Assembly (NCBI GenBank): GCA_013204395.1
Contig: JABMNZ010000013.1
Span: forward strand, 1 to 53,278
From: Parcubacteria group bacterium
GTDB lineage: Bacteria; Patescibacteriota; Patescibacteriia; UBA9934; GWF2-40-263
Length of the DNA: 53,278 bases
Reading direction: 5' to 3'
Both the position numbers and the translations under genes were made by a program. Positions within the stretch are counted from its first letter, which is position 1, and each line of letters begins with the position of its first letter. Shown here one piece after another: positions 829 through 50,063 of this stretch. The notes under the pieces were generated by a model, which saw nothing but the letters and a program-made list of their open reading frames with translations, did not search any database and was not told the origin of the DNA.

Positions 829-3654
829 ATGAGCAAGCTATTAAAAGTACTTTTTGGAGATCCTAATAAGAAGATGTTGGCTGAGTTTGGTATTGAAGTT
901 GCCAAGATCAACGGTCTTGAGCCTGAGATAGCTGTGCTGTCGGATGAGCAGCTAAAAGACAAGACTCAGGAATTTAAAGACATTCTTGCCAAGGGTGCTG
1001 CTCTTGATGACATTCTTTATGAGGCCTTTGCTGTTGTTCGCGAGTCTGCAAAGCGAACGCTTCAGCAACGTCACTATGACGTGCAGCTTATCGGTGGACT
1101 AGCCATGCATCGTGGTCAGATTGCTGAGATGCGTACTGGTGAGGGAAAGACTCTTACATCAACACTCGCGATGTATACCAATGCATTGCGTGGCCAGGGG
1201 TGCCACTTGATTACGGTTAACGATTATCTGGCCCGACGTGATGCTGTGTGGATGGGGCAGATATTTCATTTTCTCGGATTGAGTGTGTCTGTCATCCAGC
1301 AGCAAGAGGCTTTTCTCTACGATCCTGGGTTTAAGCATCAGGAAGATAGCCTTGAGGGAGAGATGGCTGATAAAGAGCGTGATGCTACTGCAGAATTTTT
1401 AGTAAAAGAAGATTTCTTGCGTCCGTGTTCTCGGAAAGAAGCTTACGACGCTGACATTACCTATGGAACAAACAACCAGTTTGGTTTTGATTACCTGAGG
1501 GACAACATGGCCCCGACTCATGAGCAAACTGTCATGCGTGAGCTTCACTTTGCCATTATTGATGAGATTGACTCGATCTTGATCGATGAAGCGCGTACGC
1601 CATTGATTATTTCTGCGCCTGCTGAAAAATCTAATGAGTTGTATTCACGTTTTGCGATGATTGCGTCGACACTGAAAGAGAATGAAGATTTCAATATCGA
1701 TGAGAAGATGCGTGCGTCTACTCTTACAGAGGAGGGAATTGAGAAAATCGAAGCATCGCTTGGAATCGAGAACTTGTACGCCATTGAGCAGGGGATCTAT
1801 CAGCGTTATGCAGATACCGCCTTGCGTGCGCGCGCAAACTATCAGCGTGATGTCCATTATGTTGTGAAGGAGGGGGAGGTGATGATCGTTGATGAATTTA
1901 CTGGACGTCTCATGCCAGGACGACGTTTTTCAGAAGGGATTCACCAGGCCATCGAGGCCAAGGAGGGAGTGGACATTAAAAATGAAAGTCAGACTCTTGC
2001 AACAATTACGTTTCAGAATTTGTTCCGCATGTACCACAAGCTTTCTGGTATGACTGGTACGGCCGCAACAGAGGCTGAGGAGTTTGGAAAAATTTACAAT
2101 TTGGAAGTTGTTGAGATCCCCACAAATAAACCAATTGCACGTCTTGATCTCCAGGACCGAATCTTTAAGTCTGAGATTGGGAAGTATCAGGCGCTTGTTG
2201 AGGAGATTCGTGCAAAGCAAGAGCTGGGACAGCCAGTGCTTGTTGGTACTGCCAGTGTAGAGAAAAACGAAGCTTTACACTCGTTGCTCACAAAAAGTGG
2301 GATTAGGCATGAGGTTCTTAATGCAAAAAACCATGCCCGTGAAGCTGAGATTATTGCTCAAGCGGGTGCTGAAGGGGCCGTCACGGTTGCCACAAACATG
2401 GCTGGTCGTGGAGTTGATATTAAACTAGGTGGTAATCCAAGCACTCCAGAGACAGAACAGAAAGTCATAAGTTTGGGTGGTTTGCATGTGATCGGCACAG
2501 AAAGGCATGACTCTCGTCGAATTGACAATCAGTTGCGTGGACGTTCTGGTCGTCAGGGAGATCCTGGGTCAACGCAGTTTTATCTTTCAATGGATGACAA
2601 CTTGATGAGGATTTTCGGTTCTGACCGGGCCAGAGGAATGATGGACAAGCTTGGTATTCCAGATGACATGCCTATAGAGAACAAGTTCATTTCTGGATCC
2701 ATTGAGAAGGCCCAGACCCGTGTTGAAGGTCACCATTTTGATTCCCGTAAGCATCTTCTTGAATACGACGATGTATTGAACAAACACCGTGAGGTAGTCT
2801 ATGCCCGTCGTCTTGAGGTGCTCGATACGTTTCGTGACAACCCAGAAAAGATAAGAGACCGTGTCTTGGATGTGATTGAGGGTGAAGTCGAGCAAGTGGT
2901 TCTTTTTCACTCAAGCGAATTTGAGACTCCACCAAAGGGACCAAAAACAGAAGAAGAGCCCGGCGGAGCCGGCTCCGGCTCCGCCGGAAAGACACAGTGG
3001 GATGTTAAGGAAATAATCGAAACAACTGGAACAATTGTTGCGCTAACAGATGCGCAGAAAGGCGAGCTCTTAGACATTAGTTTAAAAGCCACACATGACA
3101 AGGAAGATATCGCTATAGGACGCAGCACGATTATCACAAAGATCATGGAGTTGGTGCGCGCGCAGTACGACAAGCTTGGAGATATTTTTGAAGAACCAAA
3201 AGACGTCCAGAATATTGAACGCGGAGTGATCCTGAGGGCGATCGACTTATTGTGGGTGGATCATCTTGCTGCTATGGGAGGACTGCGAACGGGTATTGGT
3301 CTACAGGGCTATGGTCAACGTGATCCATTGATCGAATACAAAAAAGAAGGGTTCAACATGTTCCAGACGCTTCTCGGATCTATCAATCATGAAATAACCC
3401 ACACATTTTTCAAGTACGCCAAGCACGCTGTGGACATGAAGGTTCAAAACGAATTAAATCGTTCAATGCTTAGCCGTGCTGGCGTGACAATGGCTGGAGC
3501 AGCAAAGACCATGGGTAGGAAGAATCCGATGCGTCTGGTTCAAGGAGCGGCTGTTGCGGGTGCGGCCCCGCAAGCAGAGCATGTAGAAAAAGTCGGTCGT
3601 AACGAACAATGTCCGTGTGGTAGTGGGAAAAAGTTTAAGAAGTGTCATGGTTAG
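829..3654 (+). CDS. secA: Preprotein translocase ATPase SecA
   Basis: SecA is the cytoplasmic ATPase that pushes unfolded preproteins through SecYEG. In the 941-residue product, Walker A (TGEGKT) is at 103-108, the DEID Walker B at about 245, and YGTNNQFGFDYLRDN precedes it. The motor motifs MAGRGVDIKLGG and QLRGRSGRQGD are intact, and the C-terminus is a zinc-binding CPCGSGKKFKKCHG tail. It is somewhat longer than many SecA proteins. There is an acidic insertion before the YGTNN motif (about residues 160-200) and a linker at about 706-725 that contains the in-frame palindromic repeat encoding PGGAGSGSAGK. It is transcribed from its own promoter. The partners SecD and SecF are about 10 kb downstream; SecYEG is not in the window. 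Confidence 0.98.
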   Translation: MSKLLKVLFGDPNKKMLAEFGIEVAKINGLEPEIAVLSDEQLKDKTQEFKDILAKGAALDDILYEAFAVVRESAKRTLQQRHYDVQLIGGLAMHRGQIAEMRTGEGKTLTSTLAMYTNALRGQGCHLITVNDYLARRDAVWMGQIFHFLGLSVSVIQQQEAFLYDPGFKHQEDSLEGEMADKERDATAEFLVKEDFLRPCSRKEAYDADITYGTNNQFGFDYLRDNMAPTHEQTVMRELHFAIIDEIDSILIDEARTPLIISAPAEKSNELYSRFAMIASTLKENEDFNIDEKMRASTLTEEGIEKIEASLGIENLYAIEQGIYQRYADTALRARANYQRDVHYVVKEGEVMIVDEFTGRLMPGRRFSEGIHQAIEAKEGVDIKNESQTLATITFQNLFRMYHKLSGMTGTAATEAEEFGKIYNLEVVEIPTNKPIARLDLQDRIFKSEIGKYQALVEEIRAKQELGQPVLVGTASVEKNEALHSLLTKSGIRHEVLNAKNHAREAEIIAQAGAEGAVTVATNMAGRGVDIKLGGNPSTPETEQKVISLGGLHVIGTERHDSRRIDNQLRGRSGRQGDPGSTQFYLSMDDNLMRIFGSDRARGMMDKLGIPDDMPIENKFISGSIEKAQTRVEGHHFDSRKHLLEYDDVLNKHREVVYARRLEVLDTFRDNPEKIRDRVLDVIEGEVEQVVLFHSSEFETPPKGPKTEEEPGGAGSGSAGKTQWDVKEIIETTGTIVALTDAQKGELLDISLKATHDKEDIAIGRSTIITKIMELVRAQYDKLGDIFEEPKDVQNIERGVILRAIDLLWVDHLAAMGGLRTGIGLQGYGQRDPLIEYKKEGFNMFQTLLGSINHEITHTFFKYAKHAVDMKVQNELNRSMLSRAGVTMAGAAKTMGRKNPMRLVQGAAVAGAAPQAEHVEKVGRNEQCPCGSGKKFKKCHG
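2957..2992 (+). repeat. In-frame palindromic GC-rich repeat, copy 1 (inside secA)
   Basis: A perfect 11-bp inverted repeat (CCGGCGGAGCC at 2960-2970, GGCTCCGCCGG at 2977-2987) encloses a 6-base loop. The 36-bp unit matches 17105-17140 in all but one base. It is read as PGGAGSGSAGK from residue 711 of SecA, in a linker between conserved SecA regions. Confidence 0.9.
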
Positions 3655-9260: not shown

Positions 9261-9292
9261 ATAAAGAAAATCCCCAGCGCAAGGCTAGGGGA
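9261..9292 (-). terminator. Terminator overlapping the stop of the ATP-grasp gene
   Basis: On the minus strand TCCCC-T-AGC / GCT-GGGGA pair with one bulged base, followed by TTTTCTTTAT. The stem includes the stop codon at 9285-9287, giving this gene a terminator of its own next to the bidirectional one. Confidence 0.6.
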
Positions 9293-10559
9293 GAGAGATC
9301 TGACCGACGATGCCGTCGGAGACCGCGTGGATCATGCGTGGGCCGCCTCGGAGGGCAGTTACGAGCTGTGCGTGAACGTCGTCTGGGACGGCGATGACGC
9401 CATTGTCCCGCAAGAGCGCAGCTTTTTCAGTGGGCTCACGGTTGTAGACCCTGGTGTGAGTGGTGTTGATCATCAGGACTCTTCTGGTGACTTGAAGCGC
9501 AATTCCAGAACTGAAGGCTCCCCGCATCTGGAAAAGTCCAAAGTCACTTGACGGGTCATTTTCCCAGACGACAGTTGGTGTTCCGTCGAAGCGTCCTTCT
9601 GGCTTGGCCAGGTCTGCATCAACTCCGAATATGGCTAGAAAGGACTCGTCATCGCTCGTAAGAAGACGAGCCATTGCCTTCGTGTTGAACGCTGAGCTGA
9701 CGATTCCGGTAGTGGTCAGGGGGTTTGCGAGAGTTTCAATCTCGACAGCCCCAACTCTCACTCGGTTCGGAGACGGACGAATCTGGACGAGGTTCCAGAT
9801 CCATGGTGTGTCAGGGTGCACTATGAGTTCGAGCTGAACGCCGAAGTCGATACCCAGATCCTTGACTCTGTACCAGAGCTCTTTTGCGATCTCCCACAAG
9901 GGGAGGTTCATGCAGGCACCGACGAACAGATTCCCGGTTCTTGTTTCCGCGATCTGTCTACCCGTGTTGGGTTCGTACAACTCGTGACGACCTTCGTAGT
10001 CCCACGTAGCTGAGGTGAAGGTTCGGACACCTGTCTCTGTGACAACCTCGCGTCCGGTCGCGACCCTTATGACTGGTTGGTCCAGGACGTGGCTGTGGGC
10101 GATGTCGACCACGATTCCAATCCCGGGAATGTGTTCTTGGATGACGACTGGTGATCGCCACCGAGAAACAACCTGTGCGTTCTGGAACACGTCTTCAGGA
10201 GAAGAGCGAACCGATGTGTGGCGTCCAGCCGCTCCATCGATCCAGTCTTCTGAACGAGCAGAACTTCGTACGTGCACTTGTCCGCACTGGCTGGCCAGCC
10301 AGGATGTGGATTCCGAGTTTCCTTGTGCGATTTGATCCTGGATAGACAGACCCATCCAAGATGGAATGGTCAAATGCTTGGCCCCACTTGCGATCATCTC
10401 GCAGATCTTCAGTCCAAGCGCCTTTCCTCCAGACCGACTAACCGTCGAGAGGATCTCGCTGTCGGGCAGTGTTACCTTCAGTTCCTCCGGCAGTTGCAGG
10501 AGGGTCTGAGCGGAGTCTACACGACCGTAGACCCACTTACTGGTTTCAAAGAGTTTCAT
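9285..10559 (-). CDS. GC-rich orphan PEP-synthase/PPDK-like ATP-grasp protein
   Basis: The first 265 residues resemble the ATP-binding domain of pyruvate phosphate dikinase and PEP synthase: SRSGGKALGLKICEM with GGK at 44-46, IPSWMGLS, VHVRSSARSEDWIDGAAGRHTSV at 96-117, VVIQEHIPG, and NLVQIRPSP at 257-264. The rest (about 160 residues) is not the usual swivelling phosphohistidine domain plus pyruvate-binding barrel, so this is not a complete PEP synthase. A phosphotransferase using ATP is an inference from the fold. The start has a strong ribosome-binding site, AGGAGGGAGAA-ATG. Codon use is visibly GC-richer than in neighbours. It stands alone on the minus strand between plus-strand operons, with its own terminator. 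Confidence 0.7.
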   Translation of the reverse strand: MKLFETSKWVYGRVDSAQTLLQLPEELKVTLPDSEILSTVSRSGGKALGLKICEMIASGAKHLTIPSWMGLSIQDQIAQGNSESTSWLASQCGQVHVRSSARSEDWIDGAAGRHTSVRSSPEDVFQNAQVVSRWRSPVVIQEHIPGIGIVVDIAHSHVLDQPVIRVATGREVVTETGVRTFTSATWDYEGRHELYEPNTGRQIAETRTGNLFVGACMNLPLWEIAKELWYRVKDLGIDFGVQLELIVHPDTPWIWNLVQIRPSPNRVRVGAVEIETLANPLTTTGIVSSAFNTKAMARLLTSDDESFLAIFGVDADLAKPEGRFDGTPTVVWENDPSSDFGLFQMRGAFSSGIALQVTRRVLMINTTHTRVYNREPTEKAALLRDNGVIAVPDDVHAQLVTALRGGPRMIHAVSDGIVGQISLP

Positions 10560-10701: not shown

Positions 10702-12753
10702 ATGCAAACTTGGAAATTAAAGAAGAAAGTTCAGAAAAAGACCCCTAAACCTTGGGGTATGCACGTTGGCGCAATTTTGTTCCTTCTGGCGACCGTCGGT
10801 TTGGCGGTTTACAATTTTCCGGCAATTTGGAATCATGGAGCAGATTTTGTTAGATCTCAGACGGGTTGGGCTCCACCTAGCCTTGTCGATGAGCCATTTA
10901 GATTAGGTCTGGACCTTCAGGGGGGCACTCACCTTATTTATGAGGCTGACATGAGCCAGATCCCTGAAGAGGATCGAGTTGAAGCTTTGGAGGGTGTTCG
11001 TGACGTGATTGAGCGTCGAGTGAATGCGTTTGGTGTTTCTGAGCCCGTGGTTCAGACAACGACCACTGGTGGAACATATCGAGTGATCATCGAGCTTGCT
11101 GGAGTACTGGATGTTTCAGAAGCCATCTCTCTTATCGGTGAGACGCCTGTTCTGGAGTTTAAGGAGCCGGGTGAAGATCTCAATGGAGAACCAACAGAAG
11201 ATCAACTTATTGAATTAGATCTTGTAAATGAAGCAGAGCGTTCCGCAGCTGACGCGGTGCTTGCTCGTGCACTTGCAGGGGAGCCGTTTGATGATCTTGT
11301 AAGCGAACTTAGTCTTGAGCCTGGGATCGAAGAGACGGGCGGTGTTTTGGAAAACATCAGTGGGAATTCGTCTCGCTCAGAATTTTTCATCGTCATCAAC
11401 GAAAAAGGATTGTACCCAGGGCAGGTTTACTGGAACACGCTCGAGACTCAAGAGGGGATCAACATTTTCAAATATTTGAATGCTGGAGAGCGTGCACAGA
11501 TGGAGCTTTCGCATATCTTGATTTGTTATGAGGGAACGATTGGGTGTGAGAGTGGTCTTACGGAGCTTGATGCTTCCATTCAGATAAATGAGGTTCTTGA
11601 ACTGGCAACAGCTGATAATTTTGCTGAAGTGGCAAAGCAGTACTCCACTGGCCCATCTGGTCCAAATGGTGGGTATCTTAGCTGGGGAGATCCTGAACAG
11701 TACGTAACGGCGTTTGGTCTTGCTTCAGCTGGACTAGAGGTTGGAGAAATTTCCTCTGTCGTTCAAACGGAATTTGGATATCACATCATTTATAAGCATG
11801 ACGAGAAGATAGAGAAGGCCTATACGGTTCAGAGGGTTTTGCTAGGTCTAACAGATATTTACGACATAGCTCCAGAATTGCTCGATCCATGGATCAACAC
11901 CGAACTTTCTGGAAAGCATCTAGAGCGTGCCGGAGTCGAATTCGATTCCAACACAGGTTCCCCTTACGTGACACTTACGTTCAACGCAGAGGGTGGGGAT
12001 ATGTTTGCCGCTTTGACCGAAGAGCATATTGGAGAGCCTATAGCCATCTTCTTGGATGGAGATCCAATCTCTACGCCAGTTGTGCAGACCGCAATCTATG
12101 GAGGGAGAGCAATCATTACCGGAGACTTCACGGTTGAGGAATCAAAATTGCTCGCACAACGCTTAACTGCGGGTGCACTCCCAGTGCCAGTTGATCTTCT
12201 TTCTCAGCAAACAGTTGGTCCTATTCTTGGAGCTGCATCCTTAGAAAAGTCTATCGTTGCTGCTTTGTACGGATTCTTACTGGTCGCACTTTACGTGGTG
12301 GCAGCATACCGATTGCCCGGATTGATTGCCGTGGTCGCGCTTCTATTATTCGCGTTCATGAACTTGGCTGCTTACAGAATGTTTGGAGTAACGATTACTT
12401 TGGCTGGTATTGCCGGTTTCGTTCTCTCGCTTGGTATTGCTGTTGATGCGAACGTGTTGATTATAGAACGCTTCAAAGAAGAATACGCATCAGGACGAGA
12501 TTTCCTAGGTGCTGTGGATGAAGCATTTGAACGCGCCTGGACAGCTATTAGGGACGGAAACATAACTACGCTTATTGCCGCTGGTGTTTTGTACTGGTTC
12601 TCATCAAGTTTCATTCGCGGATTCGCGCTCACGCTTTCTATTGGTGTGATCCTCTCTATGTTCACGGCGATTTTGGTAACACGTGTTTACTTAAAGAGTA
12701 TTCTCCAATCGAAGAAGATTCGTAAACCATCCCTATTTGGGGTCAAACGATAA
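10702..12753 (+). CDS. secD: SecD with embedded parvulin-like prolyl isomerase region
   Basis: SecD works with SecF and SecA in protein export, using the proton gradient from the outer side of the membrane. In the 683-residue product, TM1 is at about 20-38, the D1 motif FRLGLDLQGGTHLIYEAD at 66-83, the periplasmic P1 region continues to about 160 and resumes after about 370, and TM2-6 lie in the C-terminal third (LGIAVDANVLIIERFKEE is the conserved TM4 motif). Residues about 266-369 form a parvulin domain: LSHILI, FAEVAKQYSTGPSGPNGGYL, GEISSVVQTEFGYHII. Residues about 175-262 look like a degenerate second parvulin unit. An ordinary SecD lacks both. secF follows after one base. Confidence 0.93.
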   Translation: MQTWKLKKKVQKKTPKPWGMHVGAILFLLATVGLAVYNFPAIWNHGADFVRSQTGWAPPSLVDEPFRLGLDLQGGTHLIYEADMSQIPEEDRVEALEGVRDVIERRVNAFGVSEPVVQTTTTGGTYRVIIELAGVLDVSEAISLIGETPVLEFKEPGEDLNGEPTEDQLIELDLVNEAERSAADAVLARALAGEPFDDLVSELSLEPGIEETGGVLENISGNSSRSEFFIVINEKGLYPGQVYWNTLETQEGINIFKYLNAGERAQMELSHILICYEGTIGCESGLTELDASIQINEVLELATADNFAEVAKQYSTGPSGPNGGYLSWGDPEQYVTAFGLASAGLEVGEISSVVQTEFGYHIIYKHDEKIEKAYTVQRVLLGLTDIYDIAPELLDPWINTELSGKHLERAGVEFDSNTGSPYVTLTFNAEGGDMFAALTEEHIGEPIAIFLDGDPISTPVVQTAIYGGRAIITGDFTVEESKLLAQRLTAGALPVPVDLLSQQTVGPILGAASLEKSIVAALYGFLLVALYVVAAYRLPGLIAVVALLLFAFMNLAAYRMFGVTITLAGIAGFVLSLGIAVDANVLIIERFKEEYASGRDFLGAVDEAFERAWTAIRDGNITTLIAAGVLYWFSSSFIRGFALTLSIGVILSMFTAILVTRVYLKSILQSKKIRKPSLFGVKR

Positions 12754-12754
12754 T

Positions 12755-13642
12755 ATGAAAATGGCAATTGTAGAAAATCGAAAGTACTGGTTCATCTTAT
12801 CGAGCGTTCTCGTGTTGGGAAGTATTTTGCTGGTTGGCGGATGGGGGCTCAAATTCGGAATAGATTTTACTGGTGGAAGTCTTCTTGAGGTTCAGACCGC
12901 AGATGTGATTGACATTGATCAGGTTCGTGGTGACATGGAGGGTCTTGGGTATACATCTTTAGCCATACAGTCCAGTGACGACAACGTGCTTATTATTCGA
13001 ACGAAAGATCTAAGTGAGGAAGAGCATCAGGGGCTTCTTGGTGCTCTCTCTGGGGTTATGGGGGAGATAGATGAGTTGAGATTCGATTCAATCGGTCCTG
13101 TCATTGGGGATGAGCTTCGTAGAACAGCAACAATCGGTGTGATCGTAACACTTCTGCTTATTGGCCTTTATGTTGCCTGGGCATTTAGGAAGGTGACCGA
13201 ACCCATTGCTTCTTGGAAGTATGGAGCCCTCACGATTCTAGCTGCTTTTCATGACGTCATCATTACCGTTGGGGCGTTTGCTCTACTGGGACATTTTTAC
13301 GGATGGGAGATTGGGACGTCCTTTGTGGCGGCTACACTGACTATTCTAGGGTATTCGATTAATGACACGGTTGTTGTATTTGATCGCACGCGTGAGAACT
13401 TACTCAAACGCGCCGCAGATACGTTTGAAGAGACGGTTGAACTTTCTATAAGGCAGACCTTCATGCGTTCATTGAACACTTCTGTAACAACCCTCCTGGC
13501 CCTTGCTGCCATTTACCTATTTGGTGGTGATAGCACTCGCCCCTTTGCCCTGGCGTTGATTATCGGAATCGGTGTTGGAACCTACTCCTCGCTGTTTTTA
13601 GCCAGTCCGTTGCTTGTGCAATGGGAGCTACGAAAGAAGTAA
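12755..13642 (+). CDS. secF: Protein translocase subunit SecF
   Basis: The 295-residue product has the SecF pattern: TM1, the motif GLKFGIDFTGGSLLEVQT, a short periplasmic domain (VRGDMEGLGYTSLAIQSSDDNVLIIRTK), then five more membrane segments with GYSINDTVVVFDRTREN and the SLNTSVTTLLALAAIY motif. It forms a complex with SecD to assist late steps of Sec export. I start at the ATG at 12755, one base after the secD stop; an upstream in-frame ATG lies inside secD. A terminator follows. Confidence 0.95.
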   Translation: MKMAIVENRKYWFILSSVLVLGSILLVGGWGLKFGIDFTGGSLLEVQTADVIDIDQVRGDMEGLGYTSLAIQSSDDNVLIIRTKDLSEEEHQGLLGALSGVMGEIDELRFDSIGPVIGDELRRTATIGVIVTLLLIGLYVAWAFRKVTEPIASWKYGALTILAAFHDVIITVGAFALLGHFYGWEIGTSFVAATLTILGYSINDTVVVFDRTRENLLKRAADTFEETVELSIRQTFMRSLNTSVTTLLALAAIYLFGGDSTRPFALALIIGIGVGTYSSLFLASPLLVQWELRKK

Positions 13643-13738: not shown

Positions 13739-15532
13739 ATGCTCCCTCTCTTTGCCATTCCAATAGTGAATGAGGCGAGTCAGATTGTCTCAACTAGCTC
13801 AACATACTTTGACCAACGGATAGACATCATTCTTTGGGATGTTTTTGTTTGGACAGCATGGATTCCAATCGTCATTACATTGTTCTGGGGTTTTATTGCC
13901 ATGTGGAAAAACTCACGGCAGGGTGGTTATGTAGGTACGTTAAAATTCGTGCTTCTAGCCATTGACGTTCCTTCCATGACTGAACAATCACCAAAGGCAT
14001 TGGAAAACTTATTCGCCACTTTGTATGGGGCCAAGTCATCTATCACCTGGAAAGAGGAATGGATTTACGGAAAACTTCACCCAGTCTTTTCTTTTGAGAT
14101 TATCTCAACGGAAGGATATATTCAGTTTTTAGTTCGTACTCAACCTCGCTTTCGTGATGTTGTTGAAGCGGGAATCTATGCAAACTATCCAGATGCTGAG
14201 ATTTTTGAAGTTGAGGATTATGTAACACCTTTTCCAAGCGAGTTTCCTGATGAGGAATATGACATGTGGGGAGGGGAGTTAACGCTTGAAAAGCATTACA
14301 TGTATCCCATCAGGACCTATGTCGATTTCGAGGACAAGATGACTGGGGAGATTAAGGATCCTCTTGGGTACATGCTCGAGCAGATGGCTAAGATGAAACC
14401 TGGAGAACATTTTTGGTTCCAGATGCTTGTACAACCCTCAACAAATAGTTGGTCGGAGCACGGCCTCAAATATGTCAGGGCGATTTATGGCGACGAGGAT
14501 AAGCCTAAAAGAAGTACTTTTATTGCAATCTTAGAACATATTATTTCATGGCCAAGTGGGCTGTTGAATGAAGCTTTGGGTATTGATTTAAATCCATTGC
14601 TTTTTGGTGAGGATGGTCCTGGTGCTGAAGAAGATCAGTGGAAGGTTTTTAAAATCACTCTGCCACAGCAAGATGAAGCTAAAGCTATTTTGGCAAAATC
14701 TACTAAAGTCGGGCATGGAGTAAAAATTAGGCTACTTTATTCAGCCAAGAAAAATGCTTTTGTAAAAGTTGAAAGAACAGCGATCATCAAGGGGATGTTG
14801 AATCAATACACTCACATGAATCTAAACCGGTTCTCCTTTTACATCCCAACAGTTCCAAAAGATGATTATTGGTGGATGAGATTGGCCTACGCTTCAAAAC
14901 AGAAAAAATTAATGAACGCATACAAGAGCAGAAGTTACGGAGTTGGGGCAACGCCTGTTTTCTTGAACGCAGAAGAGCTTGCTACATTGTGGCATTTCCC
15001 AACCATTACCATGAAAGCTCCTCTTGTGAGTAAGTCAGAATCTAAACGTGCTGAGCCACCAGTTGGATTGCCTATTACCTATCTAGAAAATATCTTGCCG
15101 GGATACGGCGAGGGTGAACAGGATATTCCTGGTTCGCCAACGGATGGTGATATTTCTCAGGTGGCAAGTAGTTTACCCACAGCGGTATCCGATGAACCAC
15201 TTCCAGATACACTCCCACAACCCATATCACCCACAGGACAGGATTATCATCAGGTTGAGGACAATCTCGCTGATCTCCCTGAAATGGTATTAGAAAAAAT
15301 TGTGCAACCCGAACCAGTTTCACGAGTTGTTCAAGAAGAACTAGTCAACTCAGGGGTGATTCCACCAAGACCTTCGATTATAGATCCAGAAAATCTAGGG
15401 GCTCTTATAAAACATTATGAGGCACTAGAGTCTGTTGTTTCAGTTACGACACCAACGGATGAACTGTCGGATGATAAAAAACCGCCATCGCAAGACGAGG
15501 ATGGTTTTGTTCCACCAAACCTGCCGATATGA
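13739..15532 (+). CDS. Membrane-anchored partner of the VirD4-like ATPase, unknown function
   Basis: The 597-residue product has one strong membrane segment at about 30-52 (DVFVWTAWIPIVITLFWGFIAMW) and then a large soluble region to about 440. The C-terminal 150 residues are proline-rich and low-complexity. I cannot name the domain. The soluble part includes FLVRTQPRFRDVVEAGIYANYPDAE and WFQMLVQPSTNSWSEHG. Its stop overlaps the start of the VirD4-like gene (ATGA), so the two are almost certainly translated together. By analogy with VirB10/VirD4 pairs it may anchor the ATPase at the membrane, but that is inference. A -10 box TACAAT (13722-13727) lies 11 bases before the start. Confidence 0.7.
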   Translation: MLPLFAIPIVNEASQIVSTSSTYFDQRIDIILWDVFVWTAWIPIVITLFWGFIAMWKNSRQGGYVGTLKFVLLAIDVPSMTEQSPKALENLFATLYGAKSSITWKEEWIYGKLHPVFSFEIISTEGYIQFLVRTQPRFRDVVEAGIYANYPDAEIFEVEDYVTPFPSEFPDEEYDMWGGELTLEKHYMYPIRTYVDFEDKMTGEIKDPLGYMLEQMAKMKPGEHFWFQMLVQPSTNSWSEHGLKYVRAIYGDEDKPKRSTFIAILEHIISWPSGLLNEALGIDLNPLLFGEDGPGAEEDQWKVFKITLPQQDEAKAILAKSTKVGHGVKIRLLYSAKKNAFVKVERTAIIKGMLNQYTHMNLNRFSFYIPTVPKDDYWWMRLAYASKQKKLMNAYKSRSYGVGATPVFLNAEELATLWHFPTITMKAPLVSKSESKRAEPPVGLPITYLENILPGYGEGEQDIPGSPTDGDISQVASSLPTAVSDEPLPDTLPQPISPTGQDYHQVEDNLADLPEMVLEKIVQPEPVSRVVQEELVNSGVIPPRPSIIDPENLGALIKHYEALESVVSVTTPTDELSDDKKPPSQDEDGFVPPNLPI

Positions 15533-17880
15533 GCATGAATCACGATCATGATAACGAGGTGATCTATTTCGCGAAGACGAACTTCAGAAATCAGATGACT
15601 AAGTTCGGGATCAAGACCGATGACCGCAGGCGACACATGTATGTCATCGGAAAGACTGGTATGGGTAAGACAACTCTGCTGGAGAATTTAATTTTGTCAG
15701 ATATTTATGCTGGGCATGGTTGTTGTTACGTGGACCCCCATGGAGACACCGCAGAGAAAATCATCAACTACATTCCATCTTGGCGATTGAATGACGTGGT
15801 GTATTTCAATCCAGCTGATTTGGATTACCCTGTTGGATTTAACATCCTTGAGGCTGTATCCGAACGTCATAAGCATTTAGTTGCTTCAGGAATGATGGGG
15901 GTGTTCGCAAAAATCTGGGAAAACATGTGGAGCTCACGAATGGAGTACATTTTGAATAACACGATCTTGGCCCTTCTGGATAATCAAGGTCAGACAATGC
16001 TTGGTATTAACAGAATGATGTCTGACGCCGAGTATCGCAAACGAATGGTGAGTAACGTGAAAGATCCTGTTGTAAAACAGTTTTGGGTTACAGAATTTGC
16101 GAGTTGGTCTGAAAAGTATGCCACTGAGGCGACAGCGGCTATTCAAAACAAGATTGGTCAGTTCTTGTCTGCGAGCGTTATTCGTAACATTGTGGCTCAG
16201 GTTAAATCGACCATTCACATCCGTGACATCATGGATCAGAATAAGATCTTTATCGTGAACCTGTCTAAGGGTCGTGTTGGTGAGGATAACTCAAAGTTGA
16301 TCGGTGGGCTTCTTGTTACAAAGATTCAGCTCTCTGCCATGGAACGAGTGGATACACCAGAAGATGAACGAGATGACTTTTATCTGTACGTTGATGAGTT
16401 TCAAAACTTTGCCGTGGAATCCTTCGCAAACATTTTGTCTGAGGCTCGTAAGTACCGATTATGTCTTTTGATGGCTCATCAGTACATTGCTCAGCTTACT
16501 GAAGAGGTGAGAGATGCTGTGTTTGGTAACGTTGGAACGATGGTGGTTTTTAGAGTTGGTTCTCCGGATGCAACATTTATGGAAGCGGAGTTCATGCCCA
16601 GGTTCATTCCAGAGGACATCATTAATCTCCCTAAGTACAACATTTATCTCAAGCTCCTTATTGATGGGGTTACGTCAATGCCATTTTCTGCCATCACACT
16701 GGGTCCTATAGCCGAAGTGACAAATAGTCAGGAAAAGGTGATCAAGATTTCTCGAGAGCGATATGCTTCTCCAAGAGAAGAGATTGAGGAGAAGATCATG
16801 CTCTGGAGTGGTATGGGTGAGAAAAGTGATGAGACCTCGTATAAGGAATCTGCTGAAAAGAAGAAGGCAAATACGGGACAGAGCGGCGGTAAACCTCGTC
16901 ACGAATATAATTGCACCCGCTGTGACACACAGGTGGTGTTGCCCGTTGAACTGGATCGCAGTAGGCCAATTTACTGTGATGACTGTATTACCATCGTGAG
17001 GGAAGAGAAAAAGAGTGGTGGAAGAAAGCCATCAATCGTTAAGTCTGCCCCAAGACCAAAGCCTGAAGAAAGCTCTGCTGAGAAAGTCGAGGAACGCGTA
17101 GAAAAGCCCGGCGGAGCCGGGTCCGGCTCCGCCGGAAAGATTGTCTCAGAGAAGAAAGAGGTTGTCGTTGAGAAAAAAGAAGTTGTGGCAGAGAGAAAAG
17201 AAACGGAGGTTATAGAAAAACCACTAGCAGACAAGCCTATCAGTTTGGATGTTCTGAAAAAAGAACCAGTGAAAGAAATGAGGACCCGTGCTGAGGAGTT
17301 GGTCGTGCAAGAAAAGGCTCCTGAGATTAAAAAGTCAGAAGAAGTTCCTGTTGCAAAAAGAGAAGACTCTAAAGCTGGCGGGTATACATGTTCTGATTGT
17401 GGAGATTCATTTGAAGCAAGTGTTAAGCTCGACCGTTCACGACCAATGTATTGTGGAAAGTGTTTAGAGAAGATTCGTGACGAACGAAAAAAGGGGGATA
17501 AGGATCGCAAAGATTTTAAAAGAATCGAGCCAGTAAAGACACCTGAAGTTAAAACGGAAGCTCCCAAAAAAATGACTGAGCCAGTTGAGATTAAAGTAGA
17601 GACAAAAAGGATGGAGGAAAAGAAGACAGAAGATCGTGGGTCTACTCCATCATATCTATCTGGTGAGGAAGTCAAAAGAAAACGAAAACGTAAGCGTAAG
17701 AAGCCGTCAGATGGAGACTCACGCTCAAGACCAAGTTCATCTCCACCATCACGACCAAATCCATCACCTCAATCAATTTCGATGGAAACAAAGCCTGCTG
17801 CCTCAACGCTGGCTACTCCAAAACCGTCGAGTGGAGATAGTGGGTCGCTTAAGTCAGGTCAGACTATAAGGTTTGATTAG
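15529..17880 (+). CDS. VirD4/TraG-like coupling ATPase with two zinc ribbons
   Basis: The N-terminal 420 residues are a TraG/VirD4-type hexameric ATPase: Walker A GKTGMGKT at 41-48, CCYVDPHGDTAEKI, VGFNILEAV, Walker B YVDEFQNF with D289/E290, and LLMAHQYIAQL. Two near-identical zinc ribbons follow, CxxC-17-CxxC, with cysteines at 462/465/483/486 and 621/624/642/645, each containing LDRSRPxYC. They are joined by a lysine/glutamate-rich linker that holds the palindromic repeat peptide PGGAGSGSAGK from residue 527. The C-terminus is basic and serine/proline-rich. No relaxase, VirB4 or other conjugation gene is near. It may pump DNA or protein across the membrane; the direction is unknown. Confidence 0.88.
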   Translation: MSMNHDHDNEVIYFAKTNFRNQMTKFGIKTDDRRRHMYVIGKTGMGKTTLLENLILSDIYAGHGCCYVDPHGDTAEKIINYIPSWRLNDVVYFNPADLDYPVGFNILEAVSERHKHLVASGMMGVFAKIWENMWSSRMEYILNNTILALLDNQGQTMLGINRMMSDAEYRKRMVSNVKDPVVKQFWVTEFASWSEKYATEATAAIQNKIGQFLSASVIRNIVAQVKSTIHIRDIMDQNKIFIVNLSKGRVGEDNSKLIGGLLVTKIQLSAMERVDTPEDERDDFYLYVDEFQNFAVESFANILSEARKYRLCLLMAHQYIAQLTEEVRDAVFGNVGTMVVFRVGSPDATFMEAEFMPRFIPEDIINLPKYNIYLKLLIDGVTSMPFSAITLGPIAEVTNSQEKVIKISRERYASPREEIEEKIMLWSGMGEKSDETSYKESAEKKKANTGQSGGKPRHEYNCTRCDTQVVLPVELDRSRPIYCDDCITIVREEKKSGGRKPSIVKSAPRPKPEESSAEKVEERVEKPGGAGSGSAGKIVSEKKEVVVEKKEVVAERKETEVIEKPLADKPISLDVLKKEPVKEMRTRAEELVVQEKAPEIKKSEEVPVAKREDSKAGGYTCSDCGDSFEASVKLDRSRPMYCGKCLEKIRDERKKGDKDRKDFKRIEPVKTPEVKTEAPKKMTEPVEIKVETKRMEEKKTEDRGSTPSYLSGEEVKRKRKRKRKKPSDGDSRSRPSSSPPSRPNPSPQSISMETKPAASTLATPKPSSGDSGSLKSGQTIRFD
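17105..17140 (+). repeat. In-frame palindromic GC-rich repeat, copy 2 (inside the VirD4-like gene)
   Basis: The inverted repeat arms are at 17108-17118 and 17125-17135 with a 6-base loop. The unit equals copy 1 in secA except G for C at 17121, a synonymous third-position change in a glycine codon. It is read in the same frame as PGGAGSGSAGK and lies in the linker between the two zinc ribbons. Confidence 0.9.
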
Positions 17881-47905: not shown

Positions 47906-49318
47906 TTAGTTTGACGCTACTTCAAGATCTCCAGTGGCAAGCTCAGTTGTGAGAGCTTCTCCCAATGGGTGCAACAGCACAGAACGTTCATTCGTCCACA
48001 CGACTTGATTAAAACTCCATCTGTACTCACGGAACGTAATCTCATCACCAATGTGTCGACGCAGTCCTTCAGAAATCACGAACACATCTGGAGATCCAAC
48101 TGCCGCAACAAGTGTTCCGTCTTGGAAACCAACTGCGTCAGATAATTCGAACGTATCAAGCGACGCGGGATCAACAGGAATAACCACTAGGTTTGCGAAC
48201 TGGTTCTGCATGATTTCACGAGACATGATTGGGTGCTTCAATCCATTTTCGACATAGAAGACCCCGCCTGTTGTGTTGTTCTGCAGCAATGTACCTTGTG
48301 GGTAAACAGAATCAGTCGAGATTGGCTCGCCCTCGGTGTAAGCATCTAAATCTTCCCAGCTGACAGGAATAATTTCATCAGGTGAGAACCCTATTTGTCT
48401 AAAGGCCTCTTGAGATGTGAATCCACGTCGAGTGTCATCAACAATCAGGAAAACAGTTCCTGTAGGGGCTCTGAGTAGGGAATAGTTTGGGAAACTTATC
48501 GCTACACCCATTGGGTATCGATCAAGCTCTGAACTTGAAACTTGAATCAAAGCGTCTGGATTGAATCGAGAATAAAAAGCTGATCTAGATGTGATTGGCC
48601 TGCGGGTCCCGTGCTGGATCAACCATATGCCACCACTGTCGGCGTCCTGCAAAAGTGTGCCTGACAAATATTCATGAACAAACCATTTCTCCCAGATGCG
48701 CGCAAAGTTTTCATTGCCATGTAGGTGGGGGGTATAGGTATAGAGCGAAGCTGTTGCGTAGTTCACTGGGACAACAATCGTGTTATCGATTGTTTTTTCT
48801 ATACCAGGCCCCATGCCGGTCTCCGTATGCCCGTGATCCTCTAGGTCATCGAGGTAGTTGGTGCGGATGCGCTCAGCGGCCCAGTAGACCTGTTTACCAA
48901 ATCCTTTAAATTTTTGAATACGTGGATCTGACTTTGAACAATCATCGCAAACGGCATAGCCCATAGCCCAGTCTAGTTGGTCTTGAGAAGGGGAAGGGTG
49001 CTCAACAAGGCTTTGCTCTCGTTGGAGCAGTACTAACAAAAACTTTGGGCTGAGATCAAACTCAAGGGATACGTTGTAAATAATTTCAGCAGCTGTTCTT
49101 TGAATGTCATTCACGTCCAGGGTGACCAGAGAACCAAGTGACCCACGAGTAAGGAACCGCTGTAGATCATCAAGAGTCATGGAATACGTATCTGTCATCT
49201 CTCTATCTGAAACTAGATAGTTCGGATTAAACAGAAAATCACCCTCCGCGACCACCATAAGAGGGGACGATGAAAGGATAACTGCAAATAAAAGCCCTAA
49301 AGATATCGCTCTTTGCAT
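47906..49318 (-). CDS. Secreted protein with lysozyme-like domain and four C-terminal repeats
   Basis: The 470-residue product has a signal peptide (MQRAISLGLLFAVILSSSPLMVVA). A helical domain at about 70-215 (IIYNVSLEFDLSPKFLLVLLQREQSLV; DWAMGYAVCDDC; GFGKQVYWAAERIRTNYL) resembles lysozyme-like or transglycosylase proteins found in Gram-positive bacteria. Four related units of roughly 55-65 residues follow, each with G-T/S-L...G-x-V/W-x-L/V-I...R-x-I...F...V...L..Y/F. These may bind cell-wall or surface glycans. I start at the ATG at 49318, 9 bases after a consensus TATAAT; the longer frame is non-coding. It heads the operon with MEMO, priA, def and fmt. Confidence 0.78.
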   Translation of the reverse strand: MQRAISLGLLFAVILSSSPLMVVAEGDFLFNPNYLVSDREMTDTYSMTLDDLQRFLTRGSLGSLVTLDVNDIQRTAAEIIYNVSLEFDLSPKFLLVLLQREQSLVEHPSPSQDQLDWAMGYAVCDDCSKSDPRIQKFKGFGKQVYWAAERIRTNYLDDLEDHGHTETGMGPGIEKTIDNTIVVPVNYATASLYTYTPHLHGNENFARIWEKWFVHEYLSGTLLQDADSGGIWLIQHGTRRPITSRSAFYSRFNPDALIQVSSSELDRYPMGVAISFPNYSLLRAPTGTVFLIVDDTRRGFTSQEAFRQIGFSPDEIIPVSWEDLDAYTEGEPISTDSVYPQGTLLQNNTTGGVFYVENGLKHPIMSREIMQNQFANLVVIPVDPASLDTFELSDAVGFQDGTLVAAVGSPDVFVISEGLRRHIGDEITFREYRWSFNQVVWTNERSVLLHPLGEALTTELATGDLEVASN

Positions 49319-49327
49319 AGCCAAGAC

Positions 49328-49333
49328 ATTATA
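49328..49333 (-). promoter_or_regulatory. Consensus -10 box of the secreted-hydrolase/priA/def/fmt operon
   Basis: TATAAT on the minus strand lies 9 bases before the ATG at 49318. The -35 is weak. The spacing again predicts a leaderless mRNA. Confidence 0.55.
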
Positions 49334-49363
49334 CCGGAAATGCAGGAAAACGTGCATGAACGA

Positions 49364-49392
49364 TTGACGAACAGTCCTTTTTATGGTACAAA
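49364..49392 (+). promoter_or_regulatory. Promoter of the GC-rich repeat protein gene
   Basis: The -35 TTGACG (49364-49369) and -10 TACAAA (49387-49392) are 17 bp apart. The leader of about 56 bases holds a hairpin (TCGGAC at 49410, GTCCGA at 49427) and an AAGGAGAG Shine-Dalgarno before the ATG at 49455. Confidence 0.6.
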
Positions 49393-49454
49393 CTTTCGTC
49401 ATCCGACTCTCGGACTGTAACTTCCGGTCCGAAGACATGATCAAGGAGAGTGCC

Positions 49455-50063
49455 ATGGATGAAGAAATGGAAATCCTACCAAATGGATGGTTGAGAGAGG
49501 ACGAGTGGGAAGACACAAACCGCCTCCGTTGCTCTCAACGCGATCCGGCGCGTGGAGAGATTCGATCCGACGGATTTGCCTCCTACGCTGAAGAGCTCTC
49601 CCCACAGGAGCTCGGGGCCATGGACAACCTCGTCCTTCGACGCGAAGACGACGGGTTCTGGGTCGACTGGGATGGTGAGTCCTACGGACCATTCAACAAC
49701 TACTCCCCGTGGCCACACGTCTGTCGTATCGACGGCGTTCTGGTGGTGCACGCGGGCAGGAGAGTGGAAGGAGTGTTCCAAGCGTTCCTCATCGCACAGG
49801 GTGTGATGCGAGGACCGTTCAGGAACGCTTCCACGCCACGCTTCAAGCGAGGCTACTTCCACACGGAACCCCGATTCGATGGCGACTATGTCGTCTGGGG
49901 CAACTGCGTCAGCGGACCGCACGAGGGCGTGTCCTGCGCTCGTCTGACCTGTACCAACATCCGTGTCTTCAGGATTGCGGACACATCGAGGAACTCCTGG
50001 GGACATCGCGTTCTTACTGACCTGAGCCGTCGAGCTCAGTTCCCCCGACACACCACTCTCTAG
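49455..50063 (+). CDS. GC-rich orphan protein with a beta-repeat (DGxxYGPF type)
   Basis: The 203-residue product is soluble and made largely of short beta-hairpin units: FWVDWDGESYGPFNNYSPWP, VCRIDGVLVVHAGRRVEGVF and HTEPRFDGDYVVWGNCVSGPHEG. The DGxxYGPF-like spacing recalls repeat proteins with propeller-type folds, but I cannot assign a family. The start is set by AAGGAGAG five bases upstream; the longer frame to 49383 is not needed. It is a single-gene unit with its own promoter and terminator and visibly GC-rich codons, between the divergent priA operon and the convergent clpB. Confidence 0.68.
   Translation: MDEEMEILPNGWLREDEWEDTNRLRCSQRDPARGEIRSDGFASYAEELSPQELGAMDNLVLRREDDGFWVDWDGESYGPFNNYSPWPHVCRIDGVLVVHAGRRVEGVFQAFLIAQGVMRGPFRNASTPRFKRGYFHTEPRFDGDYVVWGNCVSGPHEGVSCARLTCTNIRVFRIADTSRNSWGHRVLTDLSRRAQFPRHTTL

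Follow-up and report, generated by a model that had tools for sequence, protein, structure and literature searches.

A tandem parvulin insert in the P1 domain of patescibacterial SecD, a candidate prolyl isomerase at the Sec exit

Introduction

In Thermus thermophilus SecDF, proton flow moves the P1 head, which pulls substrate from SecYEG. One way for periplasmic chaperones to meet the chains that leave SecYEG is suggested by Escherichia coli SurA, which binds the holo-translocon; binding data, EM and AlphaFold have led to the proposal that it contacts SecDF P1, and AlphaFold puts both SurA parvulin domains on the P1 head (PMC9987972). A further parvulin protein of E. coli, PpiD, has lost a critical histidine of its parvulin domain, which is inactive yet kept at the translocon (PMC9797188). 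The window analysed here, a 53,278-nucleotide stretch of DNA from a Parcubacteria group bacterium, encodes a SecD that carries parvulin domains in P1 and so unites in one chain a partnership thought to involve separate proteins in other bacteria. Patescibacteria, the group in which such SecDs occur, is large and consists of tiny bacteria that are uncultured.

The secD locus and its insert

The Sec genes of the window and the SecD segments outside the insert are as follows.

829..3654, plus strand: secA (941 aa), the cytoplasmic Sec motor
10702..12753, plus strand: secD with a tandem parvulin insert in P1 (683 aa)
10894..11172, plus strand: P1 base, N-terminal part (residues 65-157), with the GG motif and SecD_1st
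11899..12186, plus strand: P1 head subdomain (residues 400-495)
12199..12696, plus strand: SecD transmembrane bundle (residues 500-665)
12737..13642, plus strand: secF (301 aa), with an uncertain start codon and an overlap with the 3' end of secD

The secD reading frame (10702-12753) is intact, with no interruption. Its 683-aa product is identified as SecD by a match to TIGR01129 (E 4e-108), by the profile layout of SecD_1st (98-155), P1 head (400-495) and SecD_SecF_C (499-663), and by the GG motif, the C-terminal transmembrane bundle and the adjacent secF. Directly 3' of secDF lies a large membrane protein without a Pfam match (13739-15532), which adjoins a TrwB/TraD-like coupling ATPase with zinc-ribbon matches (15529-17880). 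Two minus-strand frames elsewhere in the window, 9285-10559 (424 aa) and 47906-49516 (536 aa), have no Pfam match at E 0.001.

The parvulin tandem sits between the P1 base and the P1 head, and in an alignment with T. thermophilus SecDF it takes the place of about 27 residues (query 162-391 against chain 124-152). Pfam searches gave matches above the curated cut-off to Rotamase_3 (255-366, E 1.9e-22, in two stretches) and Rotamase (271-367, E 1.3e-19), and in the genome scan the two copies scored 64 and 24 bits, both above the Pfam cut-off. The first-pass annotation had placed a parvulin region at residues 266-369 of SecD and a second, degenerate copy at 175-262, both within P1; the profile search and the predicted fold bear out both domains, with limits correct to within a few residues. 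Their location at the exit of the Sec channel, proposed at the same time, follows from the topology of SecD, in which P1 is extracytoplasmic. A profile search of the SecD protein for SurA_N found none, and the insert thus lacks the combination of SurA_N and parvulin seen in PrsA, SurA and PpiD.

The same insert protein is carried by 15 loci of other assemblies at 51-85% identity (13 full-length, 2 cut off), nearly all labelled Uhrbacteria, and this conservation shows the insert to be neither chance nor misassembly. The dN/dS ratios of both copies are well below 1, with copy 2 usually under tighter constraint than copy 1, although synonymous sites are saturated and only the direction of these values is safe. 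AF2 modelling of the isolated insert from 15 sequences gave a mean pLDDT of 94.3 and a pTM of 0.73. Searched with Foldseek, this model retrieved SurA first, followed by Pin1, PEB4 and PrsA; alignments with isolated PPIase domains cover 105-117 columns at a target-normalised TM of about 0.8, so the predicted structure of the insert has the parvulin fold. Prediction of the whole SecD protein was less uniform: the insert is again good, in blocks mostly of 80-95, but the overall model is weak (pTM 0.36) and does not establish the position of the insert relative to SecD.

Two unequal parvulin copies

11197..11487, plus strand: parvulin copy 1, degenerate (residues 166-262), with no first-strand His and with N254 in place of the second His
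11497..11799, plus strand: parvulin copy 2 (residues 266-366), with pocket residues H271, L326, F338 and H361, and G317 at the Asp/Cys position
11524..11547, plus strand: conserved cysteines C275 and C282, a predicted disulfide in the loop that follows the first strand

The two histidines and the aromatic residue of a parvulin pocket are present in copy 2 and missing from copy 1. Among tandem-type relatives, the first-strand histidine of copy 2 (H271) is kept in 71 of 71, and the second histidine (H361) and the phenylalanine (F338) are kept in 63 of 63. In copy 1 of these tandem relatives, the second histidine occurs in 8 of 63 and the phenylalanine in 9 of 63. The pocket on which the earlier parvulin assignment depended is therefore present in the homologues, and the degeneracy ascribed to the other copy is seen in the loss of its pocket histidines. 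The position equivalent to Pin1 C113 is occupied in the window's copy 2 by Gly317, neither Asp nor Cys; copy 2 of the 63 tandem relatives has 30 Asp, 26 Glu and 5 Gly there. The D154A variant of Bacillus subtilis PrsA loses only half its activity (PMC2678132), which indicates that PrsA activity does not strictly require the Asp.

Of the 71 tandem relatives, 64 have both residues of the C-x6-C pair, 7 have neither and none has a single Cys. This both-or-neither pattern, together with two VKOR matches in the window's genome, makes a disulfide likely; a C275-C282 bond would probably close off the loop that follows the first strand.

Strand arrangement of the tandem

11458..11523, plus strand: long strand (residues 253-274), in which the last strand of copy 1 continues as the first strand (SHIL) of copy 2, from DSSP of the AF2 models
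11809..11844, plus strand: additional segment that resembles a first strand (residues 370-381; includes AYTVQRVLL) and is predicted to complete copy 1

The segment behind copy 2, absent from the first-pass annotation, reads like LSHILIK in relatives such as L022. Both AF2 models contain two strands of unusual length, 252/253-274 and 359-381; in either of them the last strand of one copy continues without a turn into a first strand. The register sums of the two are equal (H271 + H361 = N254 + R378 = 632), as fits a single continuous antiparallel ribbon. From strand limits and register, rather than from model coordinates, we infer a strand-swapped arrangement in which copy 2 would pair with the SHIL strand that precedes it and copy 1 with the strand behind copy 2. 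A permuted tandem in which each body pairs independently with the strand after it is disfavoured because the models show no turn between a last strand and the next first strand.

Single-copy SecDs of one family (f5; L047, L094 and L095) nest among tandem SecDs (L023 and L031). Their body groups with copy 1, in a tree of 81 columns that is poorly resolved and serves for gross grouping alone, and their tail is the rear strand of the tandem. These proteins look like a tandem from which the middle has been removed, leaving body 1 and the rear strand, in agreement with the swapped pairing.

Permuted order in single-copy inserts and stand-alone proteins

In single-copy SecD inserts the match to the Rotamase profile starts only at position 9-14 of its 97, and a nearly invariant HIL strand is located behind the body, with none before it. 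The stand-alone parvulins of the class have the same order, running from a transmembrane helix through SurA_N and the body to a C-terminal HIL. In both groups the first strand is missing before the body and present after it, and the same analysis applied to E. coli SurA as a control returned the classical strand order. Judged by sequence order, circular permutation has occurred both in the single-copy inserts and in the stand-alone parvulins of the class. Permuted parvulins appear to be the rule in the class (SecD: L044, L088, L043 and other single-copy loci; stand-alone: L127, L128, L131, L137 and L143). A scan of viral contigs for SecDs with a single-copy insert found unrelated SecDs alone.

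Distribution of the insert

The survey of patescibacterial SecDs found the insert in most of 287 genomes of the class, 281 of which have a match of some kind to a profile that covers parvulin and P1 head together. Among 381 genomes drawn from the phylum the insert also occurs in several other classes, and many others have SecD without it. At the same P1 site it takes the form of a tandem, a single copy or a part of SecDF fusions; loci from other classes (L076-L086 and L113-L114) have it in SecDF fusions of 1040-1110 aa or in a longer 820-aa layout. On a tree of the SecD core, with the insert left out, presence switches at least 5 times, and changes in copy number are more frequent. At this site some lineages instead have low-complexity linkers of unrelated sequence, or nothing, and the several relatives without the insert indicate that SecD can in general function without it.

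Stand-alone parvulins and other prolyl isomerases

Of the 67 class genomes with a completeness of 95% or more, the SecD insert is present in about 63, counted as parvulin matches in frames of SecD length, and 34 also have a parvulin in a shorter frame, a lower bound because PF13616 missed the stand-alone parvulin of the window's genome. The absence of such a protein from that genome, as PF13616 had suggested, was overturned by a profile of the family's own stand-alones, which detects one of 325 aa on contig C3 (E 4.3e-109); nearly all relatives have one. This stand-alone of the window's genome (L190; contig C3, 229-1104, minus strand) is membrane-anchored and combines SurA_N and a parvulin with a decayed pocket in a single chain. 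Also encoded there is a lipoprotein cyclophilin (L205; 1474-2079, minus strand), a further candidate extracytoplasmic prolyl isomerase, which rules out copy 2 as the sole extracytoplasmic PPIase. An FKBP match was rejected for that role, as it lies in a 431-aa protein that resembles the cytoplasmic trigger factor.

The second pocket histidine is kept in none of 31 stand-alone parvulins examined from the window's order, as against 18 of 18 from other families of the class. Within the order, copy 2 of SecD is, by its residues, the only parvulin found with a full pocket, and catalysis may have moved into SecD. The first-pass annotation had supposed that the insert replaces separate PrsA/SurA-type proteins, which fails for the window's genome and for the 34 of 67 class genomes in which stand-alones coexist with it. 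The accompanying idea that stand-alone PrsA-like genes had been lost survives in a weaker form, since the gene is present and it is the pocket histidine that is gone, in 31 of 31 proteins of the order.

Proposed role and alternatives

It is probable that SecD P1 here contains a built-in prolyl isomerase, copy 2, together with a scaffold copy, at the Sec exit. Copy 2 would most likely be a working, or recently working, prolyl isomerase, and copy 1 a degenerate domain that serves as a scaffold or binds peptides; by prediction the long two-stranded ribbon is common to both, with a loop closed by the probable disulfide. Because the proton-driven P1 head of SecD/SecF pulls substrate, the insert would be located where SecD grips the emerging unfolded chain. 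Activity and substrate are what we infer from this placement and from the pocket: the insert would isomerise or hold Xaa-Pro segments during exit, and the SecD-parvulin chain would be the built-in, covalent counterpart of the contact suggested between SurA and SecDF in E. coli.

Two points speak against an isomerase, namely that a pocket may be conserved for peptide binding alone and that Gly317 stands at the Asp/Cys position of the window's copy 2. Both modules might then act only as a holdase that binds the unfolded chain, the pocket being kept for binding or fold stability. The glycine fits such a role, as do the retention of the degenerate copy 1, the suggestion that the two histidines of Pin1 are perhaps mainly structural (PMC2678132) and the PpiD parvulin domain, inactive but retained at the translocon (PMC9797188). 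The pattern of conservation nevertheless looks catalytic, with the first histidine of copy 2 invariant in 71 relatives and the second histidine and Phe in 63, while copy 1 and the order's stand-alones drift, and we regard the holdase as rather unlikely. It is improbable that the insert is a structural spacer that makes the P1 arm longer or more stable, for instance for docking on another envelope protein, its parvulin ancestry being irrelevant. Insert length and copy number do vary, and some lineages have low-complexity linkers or nothing at the site, but a spacer would not conserve pocket residues, and the linker types show no such conservation.

Slightly more improbable still is that the insert makes up for stand-alone PrsA/SurA-type proteins lost from a reduced genome. 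The empty PF13616 search of the window's genome and the missing pocket histidine of the order's stand-alones pointed that way. Against it, the sensitive profile detects a stand-alone both in the genome of the window (E 4e-109) and in almost every relative, many genomes of the class carry insert and stand-alone side by side, and the lipoprotein cyclophilin is encoded as well; replacement as gene loss is largely refuted. Extending the preferred reading of a built-in isomerase, we tentatively consider a radiation-wide Sec motor with an integral isomerase, possible though short of probable, in which a permuted, strand-swapped, disulfide-closed parvulin pair would couple proton-driven P1 movement mechanically to the isomerisation of prolines in the emerging chain and, in the window's order, the stand-alone protein would be a PpiD-like pseudo-enzyme.

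The natural fusion of tandem parvulins into P1 provides independent, evolution-made evidence for the SurA-SecDF contact, and the insert offers a single soluble fragment with which that contact can be tested. The permuted, strand-swapped parvulin would additionally be an example of how a fold can be inserted into a different protein and reshuffled as modules are gained and lost.

Comparison with known systems

T. thermophilus SecDF (3aqp) and E. coli SecD share with the present protein the GG motif, the P1 base and head, the six-helix bundle and the neighbouring secF, but their P1 has no parvulin where this SecD has the insert. SurA of E. coli likewise has tandem parvulins, is extracytoplasmic and has the SecDF P1 head as its proposed docking site; it is, however, a soluble protein with SurA_N and a strand-body-strand-body order, whereas the insert runs body-strand-body-strand within SecD and has no SurA_N. 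The parvulin of PrsA resembles copy 2, at 31-32% identity to the B. subtilis and Staphylococcus aureus PPIase domains, in a lipoprotein that, unlike the insert, has its own N-terminal chaperone domain and lies outside the translocon. PpiD-YfgM at SecYEG also presents a membrane-anchored parvulin at the Sec exit, and the order's stand-alones are similar to it (transmembrane helix, SurA_N and a parvulin without the His); PpiD is a separate protein with an inactive parvulin domain, whereas here the copy that bears the pocket is within SecD. Automatic domain annotation of such SecD-parvulin proteins in public databases is likely, and the literature searched contained no description of a SecD-parvulin fusion or of a circularly permuted parvulin. 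The parts of this system are known; their combination and arrangement are new.
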